Source of the DNA: Roseofilum acuticapitatum BLCC-M154
GTDB lineage: Bacteria > Cyanobacteriota > Cyanobacteriia > Cyanobacteriales > Desertifilaceae
Assembly: GCF_030068475.1 (NCBI RefSeq)
Contig: NZ_JAQOSP010000141.1
Location: 1-64,000, forward strand
Direction: 5' to 3'
Length of the DNA: 64,000 bases
Positions within the stretch are counted from its first letter, which is position 1; every line of letters starts with the position of its first letter. The position numbers and the translations under genes are program-made. Positions 20,917-64,000 of this stretch are shown here, piece after piece. The notes under the pieces are model-generated. The model was not told where the DNA came from, did no database searches, and saw only the letters and a list, made by a program, of their open reading frames with translations.

Positions 20917-21022
20917 AAATGAGTTATCAACAGTTTGCCCTCATCCCCCAGCCCCTTCTCCCGCAGGAGAAGGGGAGTAGAAGTCCCTCTCCCGTGGGAG
21001 AGGGATATAGGGAGAGGGCAAA
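20917..21022 (+). repeat. copy of the dispersed palindromic repeat, with terminal AAATGAGTTAT
   Basis: The segment starts AAATGAGTTAT and continues CCTCATCCCCCAGCCCC, TTCTCCCGCAGGAGAAGG and TCCCGTGGGAGAGGGATA. The same order of parts, in reverse orientation, is found in the element at 48,054-48,230, including the AAATGAGTTAT terminus. This copy lies inside the reading frame of the gene that starts at 20,919. Confidence 0.75.
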
Positions 21023-48010: not shown

Positions 48011-48053
48011 AATGATGGTATTTCCGCGAAGCGGACATGAATAACCGGACTTG

Positions 48054-48230
48054 ATATAGCTAGTCTAAATGAGTTGTGCAACAGGAAAGTCCCTCTCCCT
48101 ATATCCCTCTCCCAAGGGAGAGGGACTTTTCCCCCTTCTCCCTTCGGCTAGGCTCAGGGCAATGCCTGCGGGAGAAGGGGGTAGGGGGATGAGGGGCAGG
48201 TATTACATAACTCATTTAGGTTTGCTATAT
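48054..48230. mobile_element. 177-base MITE-like element built on the palindromic repeat
   Basis: The ends (48,054-48,075 and 48,209-48,230) are 22-base inverted repeats with four central mismatches: ATATAGC-nnnn-CTAAATGAGTT on the left and its complement on the right. The interior carries the CCCTCTCCC / GGGAGAGGG and CCCCCTTCTCCC / GGGAGAAGGGGG arms also seen at 256-408 and 20,917-21,022. It encodes no protein. Confidence 0.78.
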
Positions 48231-57914: not shown

Positions 57915-58148
57915 ATGAACTTTGATCAAATGTCGATTAAAGAGTTAAGAGCCTATGTTTTAGAGCATCGTGATGATATGGAAGCATTAGATGCTTTAGT
58001 CAGTATGAAACCGGTATTCGGCAACAAGTCGAAGCGGGAAACGAAGGCAGAATTGTTGCGATATCAGGTTAAAGATATCACATATTCTCGAAAGACGGGA
58101 GATAAATCAAAGGCAATTCCTTCTGATTCTATGGCAGTTAGTAAATAG
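57915..58148 (+). CDS. small DUF6887-like protein
   Basis: The 77-residue protein starts at ATG 57,915 behind GTGGAGGT. The segment NFDQMSIKELRAYVLEHRDD resembles cyanobacterial DUF6887 proteins, which occur in small paired gene sets of unknown function. The second half is basic and disordered. Its last 85 bases overlap, convergently, the end of the STAND ATPase gene. Confidence 0.6.
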   Translation: MNFDQMSIKELRAYVLEHRDDMEALDALVSMKPVFGNKSKRETKAELLRYQVKDITYSRKTGDKSKAIPSDSMAVSK

Positions 58149-59395
58149 CGTCGCTTCAAGGAGTCTAATCCGTTAATTAAGTCGGTTGAGGATAAGGATA
58201 AGTCGGCTCTTAACTGTTCCCGCGAAATTGGAAGATTGCTTTGACTTAAGTGGAGGGCAATTTCTTGTTCAGGAGGAGATAAACGGTTAAAATTCTCTTT
58301 CATGCGAGTTTGCATGGTTTGAGTGAGAATCAGGTGGTCTTCGGTGAGGAATTCAGCGATATTGCCGGAAAAAAGGGTTTGAATTAAGCTAGAGATTTGT
58401 TTAAGATAAATGGGATGACCTTCATAGTTTTTCAGGATTTGCAGGGCGCTGTCGCTCTCTCCTAAGCCGAAATTTTTCAATAGTTCTGTGGTGTCAAATC
58501 CGCCCAGTTCTAAGCATTTGATGGGATAAAGTTCTGTATCTAAAGCCATCATCTGTTGATTTTTTTCTTGACTGATGACGAGAAGGGTGGATTGATGGTC
58601 AATTTCGGTAATTTTGGTGAGTAGGGTTTGGTAATCTTGGGCTTCTGGTTTATAGTGTCCGGCGAGTTGACCGGGTATAAAAAGGTGTTGGAAGTCATCC
58701 AGGACAAGCAAGCATCGGCGATCGCGTAAAAGCTGGAATAATTGAGTCAGCAGAGGATGGGTGAGGAGAGTATCGGGATTAACCGTGGTTAAGATGTCCT
58801 CGATAATGGTATTTAAGCTAGGGGAGAATGGGATACTTTTCCAGATGATGGTATCAAATTTCTCTAAATTTAAGTCAATCCAGCGCTTCACGAGGGTTGT
58901 TTTACCAATCCCGGCGATGCCAACTACGGAAATCAGGGGAATATTTTGGTTACAGAGCCAATCAGAGAGTGTGCTGAGTTCGGTGGTGCGATCGCAGAAT
59001 GTCCTGATTTTTGGAGCAAGGCTTAAATCATGATTTGATTGGGGTGCAGTGGATTTGGTTGCTTCGGTGCTGGTGGTTTGGCGATCGGTAGGGCAAGTAA
59101 TATGGCTATGTAGTGACTGAACCACTTGAGAATTAACCGCTCGCTCTAACGTCCAACAAAAATTAGCTTTCTTAACTTCGTCACCTAATGCATCAGATAA
59201 GACCTTGAAAAGCTTGCGGCTCTCGTCACCGATATAGTTTTCACTGTAGCGACCGGGAATGTCTTCAGCCATTTGTTGGTAAGTCTTGCCTTCCCACAGG
59301 CCTTGAACGATGTTCTTCTGCAAATCGTCTAGATGTTTACCCGTTTGATTCTCGACTAGGCGATCGATGAACTGCAACATTTCTGTAACATCCAT
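58064..59395 (-). CDS. short STAND (NB-ARC) ATPase with N-terminal vMAP-type domain
   Basis: From ATG 59,395 the protein is 443 residues. The N-terminal domain (LQFIDRLVENQTGKHLDDLQ, then IVQGLWEGKTYQQMAEDI) is the typical cyanobacterial vMAP-type/HTH region, followed by an NB-ARC ATPase with VVGIAGIGKTTLVKRWI, CLLVLDDFQHLF and the later EGHPIYLKQ, and a winged-helix-like end. The usual C-terminal sensor (WD40, TPR or pentapeptide repeats) is missing, because the frame stops at 58,064. STAND proteins act as signalling or defence switches. An extended GTG start at 59,422 is possible. Confidence 0.82.
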   Translation of the reverse strand: MDVTEMLQFIDRLVENQTGKHLDDLQKNIVQGLWEGKTYQQMAEDIPGRYSENYIGDESRKLFKVLSDALGDEVKKANFCWTLERAVNSQVVQSLHSHITCPTDRQTTSTEATKSTAPQSNHDLSLAPKIRTFCDRTTELSTLSDWLCNQNIPLISVVGIAGIGKTTLVKRWIDLNLEKFDTIIWKSIPFSPSLNTIIEDILTTVNPDTLLTHPLLTQLFQLLRDRRCLLVLDDFQHLFIPGQLAGHYKPEAQDYQTLLTKITEIDHQSTLLVISQEKNQQMMALDTELYPIKCLELGGFDTTELLKNFGLGESDSALQILKNYEGHPIYLKQISSLIQTLFSGNIAEFLTEDHLILTQTMQTRMKENFNRLSPPEQEIALHLSQSNLPISREQLRADLSLSSTDLINGLDSLKRRYLLTAIESEGIAFDLSPVFREYVISLT

Positions 59396-59541
59396 GAAAT
59401 CAACGTAGAATAAAGGTTTCACGTATTATACCATACTTTTCACTGAGAAAACCAGGGATTTTCTGGCTTGTGCTTAATAATATGTCATAAACTTGACCAA
59501 AAAATCAGTTGTTTTCAACTTGTTTAATTCGATTAAGATCT

Positions 59542-59640
59542 ATCATACTTGTTTTATCGTTATCGGAAGAATGTGAAATTAGTCAAATTCACAACTCTTT
59601 CAGAAGTTCAAGAACATTCCATAGAAGCCCTAGTTACAGC
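59542..59640 (+). pseudogene. decayed copy of the 5' end of the dynamin-like gene
   Basis: The bases 59,542-59,640 align with 61,192-61,288, the leader and first codons of the GTPase gene at 61,231 (shared strings include CTCTTTCAGAAGT and ATAGAAGC). The start codon and Shine-Dalgarno are altered and similarity ends after about 100 bases. It is the trace of a duplication. The rest of the spacer 59,396-59,711 shows nothing else. Confidence 0.75.
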
Positions 59641-59711: not shown

Positions 59712-60224
59712 ATGAGTAACAACAATTTACTAACTGCTGCTGTGGCTGGAGCTGTGGCTATTCTAGTGCCTGGAATGATGGTATATTACAATTTCAATGA
59801 ACGGTTAGATAATGCTCAAGATGAGATTCAACAACTTCAAGCAAACCTCGATCAAACAACCCAGCAGCTTCAAGATAAGGAAAGTGTTGTGGATGAACAG
59901 GCCGAAGAAATTTCTGAGTTAGAAGGTAAAGTTTCTTTATCTCAGCAGACGCTTAGTACCAAGGAACAAGAGCTAAACACAAGAGTTCAAGAAATTAGAC
60001 GTTTGCACAACGATCTTGGAACTGTAAGCAAATGCTTGACTGGGGTAGTTGAAGTAATAGATGCATCCGAAAGGGGAGATGAGGCTGGAGTAATATTATC
60101 TTTAGTCGGACTTGAAGAACCTTGCGAAAAATCTGAAAGAATTGTTCAAGAAGTTGAGAATTTTGAAAATTCTTCAGGATATCCTTATCCTGGTAATAAT
60201 CCTCCAATTCAAACCAGTAATTGA
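59712..60224 (+). CDS. membrane-anchored coiled-coil protein
   Basis: The 170-residue protein has one N-terminal membrane segment (LLTAAVAGAVAILVPGMMVYY), then about 75 residues of heptad coiled coil (DEIQQLQANLDQTTQQLQ, EISELEGKVSLSQQTL) and a short C-terminal domain with two cysteines (KCLTGVVEV ... EPCEKS). I do not recognise a family. It lies upstream, on the same strand, of a second membrane protein and two dynamin-like GTPases, so it may be a membrane receptor or scaffold for them. It is AT-rich. Confidence 0.7.
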   Translation: MSNNNLLTAAVAGAVAILVPGMMVYYNFNERLDNAQDEIQQLQANLDQTTQQLQDKESVVDEQAEEISELEGKVSLSQQTLSTKEQELNTRVQEIRRLHNDLGTVSKCLTGVVEVIDASERGDEAGVILSLVGLEEPCEKSERIVQEVENFENSSGYPYPGNNPPIQTSN

Positions 60225-60235
60225 TATTAGCTCAA

Positions 60236-60276
60236 ACATTGTATTGTTGAACACAATACAATGTGTTTTCGTTTTT
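60236..60276 (+). terminator. rho-independent terminator after the coiled-coil gene
   Basis: ACATTGTATTGT (60,236-60,247) pairs perfectly with ACAATACAATGT (60,253-60,264) around a TGAAC loop and is followed by GTTTTCGTTTTT. It separates the coiled-coil gene from the next gene, which may be partly attenuated. Confidence 0.85.
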
Positions 60277-60312
60277 AGAAAAAATAAACCTTGTTAGGAA
60301 GAGGCTATTGTC

Positions 60313-61164
60313 ATGGTATGGGTAATTTTCTTTGCAATAATAATAGGAATGATTATATATTTGGCTTATTGGATAATTACCACACCGATAAAAGTCACTG
60401 CAAATGCTATAAGCGAAGCCCAATATCAAGGCAGACAAAAAAACGCAATTCATTCAATTAATGCTAAAAAAGGGAAAATTAAGATACATTTTTATTCACA
60501 AAACAAACTTAGTATTGAAGGGTATGACAATAAGGGAAAACTTATTTCGTCAGAGTGGAAAGAAGATTTTCAAGTCGCTAGAAAATTTGGTCGCGAGCTA
60601 GAACATGCTAAGTGGAGAAAAAGCTTTATATCTAAGCTAACAAGAAGTCATGAGAACCAATGGGAAGCTATATTAAATAAGTCATGGAGCGCTATAAGAG
60701 CATTGGAGGAGCGAGATCGCGTTATAGGAACGATAATTTCTGAGCCGCAAACAGACGCGATCGCTCAATTTGCAGACCAAGCATTGGTTAGTCTCTATTA
60801 TAAATCAGCCCATGATAACAATCAACGGCTTTGTGATGAAATTGTTGAAGAATTAGAGCAGGCGACAAAAGACTATGAAAACGCAGAAGATGAAGATGAA
60901 AGAATAAGTATTTCCACGGCAATAAAAACTCATAAAATTAGACTGGATAAACAGAAAAAAGTGGAAAAGACACTGCGGTTAGTCGATAATGAGTTTAAGT
61001 CTTTAGAGGCTACACTTGAATTAGTTATAGAAGGAATTCGCGCAGAAATATCTTCTCATCACTTAAGTGTCAACCCAAGGCTATCTTCTTACGATTCAAC
61101 TTTATTGGAACTCAAGTTACCAATTCTCGATCAAATTTGGCAATCTACCATTGAATCATCTTAG
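60313..61164 (+). CDS. N-terminally membrane-anchored helical protein
   Basis: The 283-residue protein begins with a hydrophobic helix (VIFFAIIIGMIIYLAYWII) and continues as a cytoplasmic, highly charged helical protein with coiled-coil parts (ELEQATKDYENAEDEDERIS, KTHKIRLDKQKKVEKTL). A small strand region (KIKIHFYSQNKLSIEGYDN) sits after the membrane segment. No family is recognised. It precedes the GTPase gene by 66 bases on the same strand and belongs to the same AT-rich cluster. Confidence 0.7.
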   Translation: MVWVIFFAIIIGMIIYLAYWIITTPIKVTANAISEAQYQGRQKNAIHSINAKKGKIKIHFYSQNKLSIEGYDNKGKLISSEWKEDFQVARKFGRELEHAKWRKSFISKLTRSHENQWEAILNKSWSAIRALEERDRVIGTIISEPQTDAIAQFADQALVSLYYKSAHDNNQRLCDEIVEELEQATKDYENAEDEDERISISTAIKTHKIRLDKQKKVEKTLRLVDNEFKSLEATLELVIEGIRAEISSHHLSVNPRLSSYDSTLLELKLPILDQIWQSTIESS

Positions 61165-61230
61165 TTTGCACTTCCTTAGTATTCTTAAGCACGTTCATGC
61201 TTGTTATATAGTTATCAGAAGGAGATAAAC

Positions 61231-62769
61231 TTGACTGATTTCAGCACTCTTTCAGAAGTCAAAGAGCATTTTATAGAAGCTCTAACTACTCTTCCTGAGC
61301 AAACCATTCTTGTATCTGGTGAATCTAATTCCACGTTTACCGAAATCAATCTTAGTGAGACGGTTAGCCAAGATATTCAACGACTGCAAAACTTATGGGA
61401 ATTTCTAGAGAGCTATCGTAACTTAAAAATAATTGCCTTAGTTGGTATGGTAAATACGGGAAAATCCGCTCTAGGAAACCATCTCTTACATTGTGGAGAA
61501 TCGGGTATTTTTGAAGAAGCGTGCATTCGTGAAACTTCAGAAGCTCAAGAAGCCAAGATTGACGAAGAGACTATCGTTATTGATTTACCAGGATTAGGCG
61601 CTGTTTTATGTGACGAAGATGATAAAGTTGTCCGAGGAATTATACGTCGAGCAAATCTGCTCCTACTGGTTCTTGATATTAATTATCCAATCCCAAGACA
61701 CCTTTACGATTTTCTCAAAAGTGATGAAGTCATAAAAAGTGGAGGTTTGCAGCGAATCATCATTGTTGTTAATAAAATTGATTCCTTACAAGATCTACCA
61801 GAAAAAGTACAAAAAAAACAAATACAAAAATATATTAATTTCTTAACCAATGGTAATTCTCAAATGGAATTTGAAGGAATTTCAAAACTCTTTGACTATG
61901 AAATCCCTATCGTACCCTTTTCAGTTAAGCAAGCCAGAGAAAATACAAATTCCGCCTTAGAGTATGAGTTACAGCGAGTCATTAATCTTTCTCTGGAAGC
62001 AAGCTCCAATACAGCTATCTATCGTGCGGAGTATGATTTACTTCAAATAGCGGCAAATTATGTACTTATTCTGATCGGTTATGCCACAATCCAAGAAAAG
62101 AAAGAAGATTTAGATCGGCGCATGACATCATCCATTAAAGCCGTCAGATCGGAAATTAATGACTCATTACAACGAGAAATTCAGAGATTTGCCGAGCGGA
62201 TTATATCTATTCGAGATTCTTGTTACAAAGAAATGAGTAATAGCTATACAACAACCAGTGCAGAACGATTTTGGCAGGGAGATAATTTTCAATGGAAGAA
62301 AGAAAGAATTAATAAATGCCGAGAACGATATAAAGAGCAAATGGTGTCAGAGTTTAATCAATTTTCCCGTAATTTGCGTACCAATGTATCAATCATCGCT
62401 CGCAGTCTGTTTGGTGATGTTCAAATCAGTGTCCCCAATGGGGATTCAATCACATCAGAGCTAAAAAGTTCTATTTATGAAATTTGGGATGCTTTTGATG
62501 ATTACTGGTTTTTGGATAAGGATAGCTATACATTCAATCGCAGCCTAGATCAATCAACCAATTGCTTGAATAAAGCTGTAGATTATCTAAAGGATTGGTT
62601 ATCTGAATTAGACGATCGAATTTCTGATACTTTACGCTCTAAAATTAATAATATGACTTTATTTCAAGAATACTCATACTACCTGTCTCATGCCCAATTA
62701 TTAGAATCTTTTTGCCAGAAGTTTGTATCAATTGATTATTTGAGAGATATTTTTTTGAATCAACAGTAA
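61231..62769 (+). CDS. dynamin-like GTPase, first of a pair
   Basis: The start is TTG 61,231, set by AGAAGGAGA at 61,217-61,225 (a longer in-frame TTG at 61,201 is unlikely). The 512-residue protein has a GTPase domain with P-loop GMVNTGKSA (72-79), G3 DLPGLG (118-123) and G4 NKID (181-184). A hydrophobic stretch (about 285-300, NYVLILIGYATI) and a long helical C-terminal region with coiled-coil character (SINDSLQREIQRFAERII) follow, fitting a bacterial dynamin-like layout. Such proteins often work as pairs to remodel membranes or to act in defence. The next gene encodes a second GTPase. Confidence 0.82.
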   Translation: MTDFSTLSEVKEHFIEALTTLPEQTILVSGESNSTFTEINLSETVSQDIQRLQNLWEFLESYRNLKIIALVGMVNTGKSALGNHLLHCGESGIFEEACIRETSEAQEAKIDEETIVIDLPGLGAVLCDEDDKVVRGIIRRANLLLLVLDINYPIPRHLYDFLKSDEVIKSGGLQRIIIVVNKIDSLQDLPEKVQKKQIQKYINFLTNGNSQMEFEGISKLFDYEIPIVPFSVKQARENTNSALEYELQRVINLSLEASSNTAIYRAEYDLLQIAANYVLILIGYATIQEKKEDLDRRMTSSIKAVRSEINDSLQREIQRFAERIISIRDSCYKEMSNSYTTTSAERFWQGDNFQWKKERINKCRERYKEQMVSEFNQFSRNLRTNVSIIARSLFGDVQISVPNGDSITSELKSSIYEIWDAFDDYWFLDKDSYTFNRSLDQSTNCLNKAVDYLKDWLSELDDRISDTLRSKINNMTLFQEYSYYLSHAQLLESFCQKFVSIDYLRDIFLNQQ

Positions 62770-62799
62770 TGTCGAACTGCAATTAAAGGAGGAACAACC

Positions 62800-64000
62800 A
62801 TGAACCAACAACTTAGCTATAAAACTTTTAGGGTTAACATTGATACTCAAACATTACTCGATGACTTTGCTCCAGTTTTTATCAAGGATATTTCTCAAAA
62901 GTTTCAACCGATTTTTGAATTAAAGGAAGATTATTGTTCTCGATTAGAAACTCATTGTCAGCAACTTCAGTCATTTTCAGAATTTTCTGCGCTTGTCACT
63001 ACGTTGCGTCAATATGCCCAGAAACTCAACGATGATTTCTGGGATTGCACAGAAAATGTCCAATATTTTACTCTGGTTTTTATGGGTGCAGTGAGCGCAG
63101 GTAAAACCTCAATGATCTGCGATTTACTTAATGTTAATCCAGATCGCCTGAATCAAGAACTTCGATCTTGCAATAATTTCGAGGTTGGACGAGATGATGT
63201 CGTTATTGCTGGTGAAGTTGCTACAACGAATGTCTATGAATTTTTGGTTGATTCTAGTCGTATTCGGTTAGTTGATATTCCAGGAACAGGAGGAGTTGTT
63301 CATGATAATACAACGATCGCTCCCTTTGTGAATAAAGCAGATTGTGTAATCTTCTTATGTAATGCTCAATCCGATCTAACTCGTGATGACTATGATTTTG
63401 TAGTTAGTCATATTGTAGGTCTCAGAGATACTAATGAGCTAACACCTAACACTGCTTCTGATAAAAAAGCTTTGATTGTTATCAATAAGTGGAATACGGT
63501 GGCACGAGATTTACCCTCTGAAAAGCAAAAGCAACAATGGCAAAAAAAACAAGAGTGGATTCTTTGGGGTGACAGCAAGACTAAAAAAAATGGAAACTTT
63601 AAAGGTTTAAGCGATCTGTTTAAGCGAACATTAACTATTGTTCGAGCGACTACCAGTCAAAGAATTTTTGACGACGAAACTGGAAGCTACGATCGCTATG
63701 GACAGCTTGAGCTTGAAGAAGTAATTGATGCTCTTAAAAATATTTTACTGGAAGAAGGACTGCAAATCAAGCTGGAACGTCCAAAGATTATTTTGAAAAA
63801 ATCTTTATCTGAGAGCAGAGAATTATTAGCCAACGAAAGAACTCAACGCTCGGTTGATGAATTGGTTGAAAAGCTAAAACAAATGGGAGTTAAAATTGCA
63901 GTTGACTCCAATTCGATTATGATCCTTTTGAATTCTCGGTTAGATAATTTACAGAATCGTTTGAAGAACGATCTTTTTTACCAAATCAAAGAGGGATTCG
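62800..64000 (+). CDS. second dynamin-like GTPase, partial (runs off the window)
   Basis: The frame opens at ATG 62,800 behind AAAGGAGGA and stays open to the window's end (400 codons). It has P-loop FMGAVSAGKTSM (G96-S104), a possible G2 at TT142-143, G3 LVDIPGTGG (159-163) and G4-like NKWN (229-232), where the usual Asp is Asn. Helical regions follow (SLSESRELLANERTQRS, QRSVDELVEKLKQMGVKI). It differs clearly from the neighbour in sequence, so the two are ancient partners and not a recent duplication. The C-terminus is not visible. Confidence 0.8.
   Translation, partial: MNQQLSYKTFRVNIDTQTLLDDFAPVFIKDISQKFQPIFELKEDYCSRLETHCQQLQSFSEFSALVTTLRQYAQKLNDDFWDCTENVQYFTLVFMGAVSAGKTSMICDLLNVNPDRLNQELRSCNNFEVGRDDVVIAGEVATTNVYEFLVDSSRIRLVDIPGTGGVVHDNTTIAPFVNKADCVIFLCNAQSDLTRDDYDFVVSHIVGLRDTNELTPNTASDKKALIVINKWNTVARDLPSEKQKQQWQKKQEWILWGDSKTKKNGNFKGLSDLFKRTLTIVRATTSQRIFDDETGSYDRYGQLELEEVIDALKNILLEEGLQIKLERPKIILKKSLSESRELLANERTQRSVDELVEKLKQMGVKIAVDSNSIMILLNSRLDNLQNRLKNDLFYQIKEGF

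Follow-up and report, generated by a model that had tools for sequence, protein, structure and literature searches.

A tandem pair of dynamin-like GTPases in Roseofilum acuticapitatum, placed opposite a STAND NTPase gene whose relatives face variable cargo

Introduction

What do two unlike dynamin-like GTPases do side by side in a cyanobacterial genome, and which of the surrounding genes belong with them? The question is raised by a locus of Roseofilum acuticapitatum BLCC-M154, where two such genes, here called G1 and G2, follow two genes for membrane proteins, TM1 and TM2, on the same strand. The window, that is, the whole stretch of DNA that was analyzed, comprises the first 64,000 bases of the 69,501-bp contig NZ_JAQOSP010000141.1; positions above 64,000 are window-equivalent contig positions. 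An initial annotation proposed that the four genes form one membrane-surveillance or membrane-remodeling unit, with TM1 and TM2 as its receptor or anchor. We propose, with a probability of roughly 0.58, that the locus instead combines a constant STAND nucleoside triphosphatase (NTPase), serving as sensor and switch, with an exchangeable effector, here a dynamin pair that would act on membranes; regulation and defense are what we infer from sequence comparison.

Results

The gene that the four-gene unit had left out is the part that proved constant. It lies left of TM1 on the minus strand and encodes a STAND NTPase of about 443 amino acids (aa) from an ATG at 59395, the open reading frame (ORF) tool having placed the start at a GTG at 59422. 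Its NB-ARC match is above the Pfam cut-off, and the Walker A motif can be read in the translation (Table 1). No C-terminal sensor repeats were found as a Pfam repeat family in the window STAND, which ends after the NTPase and arm region. The family is multicopy, with 3-28 matches per genome in relatives. Twenty of its loci were collected by STAND similarity, orientation being ignored, and an ORF on the 5′ side was counted if it had 70 aa or more. The first ORF 5′ of the STAND gene was divergent in all 20 (about 1 in 10^6 by coin toss, and less extreme given near-duplicates), and the cargo varied across the loci: MMR_HSR1 and AIG1 GTPases, AAA ATPase, radical SAM enzymes with small peptides, vWA with PP2C, a ricin-type lectin, and membrane proteins.

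Several STAND-linked cassettes deserve mention in their own right. A Cys-rich small peptide and a radical SAM enzyme are linked to STAND genes in L089:1690-3376 and L095:2050-3743 and are possibly an undescribed peptide-maturation pair. Another STAND-linked cassette (L083:1894-5851) carries a GIY-YIG-like protein with vWA, PP2C, and kinase-like genes, and small NfeD-like proteins with the motif GxVxFQGSWWxAR are, by reading of translations, found repeatedly as cargo of STAND genes in separate genomes (L127, L135, and L136).

The gap between the STAND gene and its cargo has a structure of its own. Across the family, such gaps hold direct repeats spaced by 10 bp, for example TCCGACATTT or TCCTATTTTT. 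In the window, the gap (59424-59550) holds TATTATA, which is −10-like on the minus strand, and then degenerate candidate operator elements (CCATACTTTT at 59431-59440, CCAGGGATTTT at 59452-59462, and a stretch at 59497-59522). Periodicity was measured by autocorrelation, which replaced an earlier count of short-word repeats that was insensitive for most loci. Relative to dinucleotide shuffles, self-identity in 19 non-redundant loci was raised by 9.4 standard deviations at lag 10 and by 5.75 at lag 20, whereas lags 9 and 11 stayed near background (+1.6 and +0.4). Controls, namely 74 ordinary upstream regions and WD40-type STANDs, lacked a 10-specific peak; a second set of compact STANDs gave a lag-10 z of 4.1. 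One helical turn per repeat suggests protomers sitting side by side on one face of the DNA. Covariation of the repeat sequence with the helix-turn-helix (HTH) sequence was suggestive by eye, but relatedness confounds it and we make no such claim.

Comparison with congeners points to a mobile block and to cargo replacement. The segment 58068-66411 (8.36 kb) is found in congener G394 with 95.3% identity, at another site and between unrelated flanks. TM1, TM2, and the C-terminus of G2 have a synonymous divergence of 0.01-0.04 between the two copies, as against 0.24-0.37 in G1 and residues 1-400 of G2; the neighboring core helicase gene reaches 0.65, and ExoD-AHCY, another core region, shows 92.5% DNA identity. 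We read this pattern as recent transfer with allelic recombination, horizontal transfer of the block being shown by the sequences. The drop in identity at 61.2-64 kb, once considered a sign of diversification, corresponds to the jump in synonymous divergence and is read as the same recombination. In G391, the STAND gene and control region are kept (90% over 58069-59550) up to 59550, where a 149-aa membrane protein follows; homology resumes at 64804 (95-99%), other cargo standing in place of window 59551-64803. At the same ExoD-AHCY site, G392 has a STAND gene whose protein is 76% identical, with an operon of five genes as its cargo; no STAND gene occupies that site in G390, G393, or G394. Taken together, these alignments indicate that cargo has been replaced between homologous flanks. 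The genes that the initial annotation had placed from 59712 onward stand, all four ORFs being where it had located them, but its boundary does not: the divergent gene at 58064-59395 belongs in the unit, which ends near 66411. Their AT-richness was likewise borne out on the left side, GC content being 34-37% over 59.5-64 kb and about 42-50% over 56-58.5 kb.

Other elements travel with, or lie at the edge of, this block. Within 64685-65890, an ORF of 102 aa overlaps the end of G2 and resembles the C-terminus of a PIN domain by eye, with no Pfam match; an intact VapBC-like pair follows, and both move with the block. A short interspersed repeat occurs at 255-337, 20917-21020, and 48052-48229 of the window and, in G394 (L032), also at the left boundary of the transferred block; it is possibly a mobile repeat.

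The GTPases themselves were confirmed as two unlike proteins encoded in tandem, 30 bases apart, behind the two membrane proteins. The G1 start is supported by four of four cyanobacterial homologs, in which the equivalent residue is the start, the TTG at 61201 given by the ORF tool lying upstream; extension past 64,000 completed G2 on the contig. Nucleotide-binding motifs are intact in both (P-loop GMVNTGKS, G3 DLPG, and G4 NKID in G1; P-loop GAVSAGKT, G3 DIPG, and G4 NKW in G2). Pfam finds Dynamin_N above cut-off in G2, where the bacterial dynamin helical domain is sub-threshold (1.6e-3), and weak GTPase matches in G1. There is no hydrophobic segment in G1 and one in G2 (residues 529-564), kept in six of six homologs compared. 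The AlphaFold2 model of G1 has long helices and a mean predicted local distance difference test (pLDDT) of 79.9; its best PDB match is LeoA (4aur) and the next is BDLP (2j69), with low global template-modeling scores (about 0.3), as would be expected for flexible multi-domain proteins. The ratio of nonsynonymous to synonymous divergence for G1 and G2 is 0.12-0.22, which indicates purifying selection; diversifying selection was rejected on this ground.

Outside the genus, four cyanobacteria proved to carry the pair when the genomes of 84,980 species were scanned, namely Sphaerospermopsis (L011), Tychonema (L012), Symploca (L013), and Crocosphaera (L014); a plasmid search added a Methylomagnum plasmid (L010). 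G2 directly follows G1, in the same order, in all five of these loci, with identities to the window proteins from 63/74% down to 36/37% (G1/G2). The suggestion of a GTPase pair was borne out to the extent that the tandem is conserved and has moved horizontally. The pair is rare: within the genus it is in two of six genomes, no other G1 match was found among 291 genomes of the class, and there was one further G2-profile match among 390. No matches to the locus were found in the phage records or viral contigs searched, and a phage origin was dropped.

The surroundings of these pairs differ. In Sphaerospermopsis, two more, unrelated tandem dynamin-like proteins, a lipase-like gene, and an insertion sequence lie just upstream (L011:2575-6872), which brings the dynamins there to four in about 11 kb. 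The Methylomagnum plasmid encodes a TIR-domain protein (TIR_2, 2.3e-20) about 0.9 kb downstream of G1-G2 (L010:16081-16758). A 51-aa hydrophobic ORF lies between the STAND gene and G1 in Tychonema (L012:9796-9948). In Crocosphaera, G1 faces a divergent ORF of 167 aa (L014:9382-9885, minus strand) that is HTH-like and lacks an NTPase domain, with two CCTGATGT repeats in the gap.

Table 1. Features of the STAND-dynamin locus in window coordinates
Feature	Position	Strand	Evidence
STAND/NB-ARC NTPase, compact, HTH-like N-terminal region, no C-terminal repeats	58064..59395	-	NB-ARC 8.1e-12; Walker A GIAGIGKTT
Putative control region between STAND and cargo	59424..59550		TATTATA, degenerate operator elements, 10-bp periodicity
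Degenerate copy of G1 5′ end (36 bp upstream + 18 codons)	59543..59632	+	Local blastn E 2e-13
TM1, N-terminal membrane segment and coiled coil, 170 aa, putative accessory cargo	59712..60224	+	Hydrophobicity, Pfam
TM2, N-terminal membrane segment and helical soluble part, 283 aa, separable cargo	60313..61164	+	Hydrophobicity, homologs
G1, dynamin-like GTPase without membrane segment, 512 aa, ATG start	61231..62769	+	AlphaFold2, fold match, PADLOC LeoA
G2, dynamin-like GTPase, C-terminal hydrophobic hairpin, 651 aa	62800..64000 (to contig 64755)	+	Dynamin_N, PADLOC LeoBC

Discussion

The conserved G1-G2 pair, the divergent STAND family with variable cargo, the 10-bp periodicity, the cargo replacement, and the horizontal transfer, all shown by sequence comparison, suggest the following mechanism. 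The STAND NTPase would bind through its N-terminal HTH region to the 10-bp-spaced direct repeats between its own gene and the divergent operon; a trigger, once sensed, would change its oligomeric state and switch the cargo on. Soluble G1 and hairpin-bearing G2 could then assemble into a hetero-oligomer on the membrane and, judging by their family, remodel, tether, or seal it, with TM1 and TM2 as accessory membrane proteins added later. The likely benefit, and the least certain step, would be a response to phage-induced or other membrane damage.

A number of observations weigh against this proposal. Of the six G1-G2 loci compared, only those of the window and Tychonema have a STAND gene beside the pair; Crocosphaera has the shorter divergent HTH-like ORF in its place, and no STAND gene is visible beside the pair in L010, L011, and L013, so G1-G2 can live without the switch. 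The 20 STAND loci come from eight related genomes, near-duplicates included, and in a more distantly related sample, where automatic calling was noisy, hand reading gave divergent cargo for about 9 of 11 HTH-bearing STANDs. The periodicity is weak in the window locus alone (p 0.023), and the close relatives L078 and L079 give no lag-10 signal by autocorrelation. As for DNA binding, the N-terminus of the Tychonema STAND homolog matches Sigma70_r4 at 4.8e-4, below the Pfam curated cut-off. The structure model of G2 (pLDDT 55.5) was too poor for a fold search, and some of the STAND cargo, such as radical SAM and NfeD-like proteins, need not be defensive.

The role of TM1 and TM2 bears directly on whether TM1-TM2-G1-G2 is one four-part membrane-surveillance system with the STAND gene a mere neighbor. 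Each membrane protein has one N-terminal hydrophobic segment, as initially described; the coiled coil ascribed to both is clear in TM1 and has weak evidence in TM2. Weak matches of TM1 to spanins, SMC, and laminin were taken as generic coiled-coil similarity. The four genes lie on one strand with short gaps and are all present in G394, and the hydrophobic ORF before G1 in Tychonema might be thought a counterpart. Yet G394 holds a horizontally shared copy and is the only other genome in which the four co-occur: TM1 and TM2 are in none of the five other G1-G2 loci, and an obligate role for them as partners, receptor, or anchor of the pair was rejected on that ground. The only TM2 homologs found are those of G394 (98%) and of G430 (55%), a genome from another family of the order; there, TM2 is the sole cargo of another STAND gene, which has a 10-bp array of its own (lag-10 p 0.001), and G1-G2 is absent. 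Moreover, between the STAND gene and TM1 lies a 90-bp remnant of the G1 5′ end (59543-59632) that is 74% identical to 61195-61284, the G1 start itself being 80% identical between the window and the G394 copy. This remnant suggests that the STAND gene once faced G1 directly, as in Tychonema, and that TM1-TM2 were inserted later. Together with the unlike synonymous divergence of TM1/TM2 (0.02-0.04) and G1/G2 (0.24-0.37) between the copies, this leaves a four-part system very improbable.

Eleos (LeoA/LeoBC) is a system with a role in defense, and G1-G2 could be a divergent form of it with the STAND gene an accessory or a chance neighbor. Indeed, the nearest PADLOC models are LeoA for G1 (9.4e-11), also its top fold match, and LeoBC for full-length G2 (5.2e-19); tree tests do not reject G1 with LeoA (p 0.073) or G2 with LeoBC (p 0.117); and, as in Eleos (PMC4159319), two dynamin-like GTPases occur in tandem, only one has a membrane hairpin, and the distribution is sporadic. 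As a yardstick, the LeoBC model was searched in 242 genomes, yielding about 20 true Eleos loci with the LeoBC gene first. Cyanobacterial Eleos scored 290-383 bits, whereas G2 reached 66.8 bits and is therefore within the range of ordinary cyanobacterial dynamins (60-75 bits, up to 77) and not at the level of an Eleos member. The gene order is reversed, LeoA-like G1 preceding LeoBC-like G2, and G2 lacks the N-terminal extension of about 290 aa, its P-loop being at residue 96 and that of cyanobacterial LeoBC near residue 210-290. G1 is closest by profile to G2, not to LeoA or LeoBC, and the best tree also joins G1 with G2 (94/72). Canonical membership was dropped on score, gene order, and N-terminal extension, and a divergent Eleos seems unlikely to us. 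The earlier remark that these were not known Eleos parts holds for TM1 and TM2; the GTPases have Eleos as their closest PADLOC model, below member level. A less unlikely alternative, which we nevertheless do not favor, is that the STAND proteins are regulators of the ordinary MalT-like kind, controlling unrelated operons for stress or metabolism, and that G1-G2 serves in envelope maintenance rather than in defense. MalT is a known example of a STAND regulator, and the cargo includes radical SAM/peptide pairs, a ricin-type lectin, and NfeD-like proteins (by reading of translations); cyanobacterial proteins with sigma-r4 and NB-ARC are on record from a sigma-factor survey (PMC11119718). The extreme rarity, the horizontal transfer, the cargo replacement at one locus, and the neighboring toxin-antitoxin genes, on the other hand, resemble conflict cargo, and GTPases recur as cargo, one of them of AIG1 type.

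Our preferred reading, a STAND switch with an exchangeable effector, has partial parallels. MalT-type STAND transcription activators act on repeated DNA sites beside a divergent operon, as the STAND NTPase here would; here, the putative DNA-binding region is N-terminal rather than C-terminal, there are no sensor repeats, and the cargo is highly variable. Conflict systems with variable effectors, including vWA-MoxR and GTPase-centric classes, the latter reported to be nearly absent from cyanobacteria, also have a constant regulatory part, fast-varying effectors, and a sporadic presence in multicellular bacteria (PMC7159879), although the constant part here is a single STAND beside a 10-bp repeat array. 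No GAP1 partner of GTPase-centric systems was noticed among the neighbors, no GAP1 model having been run. The GTPases most probably form a separate, divergent dynamin pair that would work like other tandem bacterial dynamins, its membrane activity being argued from the family. The BDLP1/2 and Campylobacter DLP1/2 pairs (PDB 2j69, 5owv, 5oxf) are likewise tandem, with a dynamin fold, a helical stalk, and a hairpin in one partner; they are widespread, while G1-G2 forms a separate branch in the best tree and is rare mobile cargo. The Bacillus subtilis dynamin DynA, for which a phage infection phenotype is on record (PMC8844932), differs in being two dynamins fused in one protein and in having no STAND switch.

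We found no description of a divergent-cargo STAND/operator arrangement in the open-license literature that was searched. More broadly, and tentatively, since we would rather bet against so general a form, there may be a cyanobacteria-wide class of NLR-like STANDs that are sequence-specific transcription switches, each with its own 10-bp operator array and a divergent cassette of effector genes that recombination at conserved flanks would exchange. Its alternative effectors, in what would be a single immune-like architecture, would include dynamin pairs, AIG1-type GTPases, peptide-maturase pairs, and vWA-PP2C sets. The usual picture of an NLR-like protein is that of a sensor which either carries a killing domain or triggers one directly. 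If true, a STAND family that instead reads a DNA operator, its effector genes being exchangeable, would connect the NTPases of innate immunity with the control of transcription. The 10-bp array with a divergent STAND gene would offer a handle for the systematic discovery of unknown effectors, and a new mobile dynamin pair outside Eleos may help in asking why bacterial dynamins occur in pairs.

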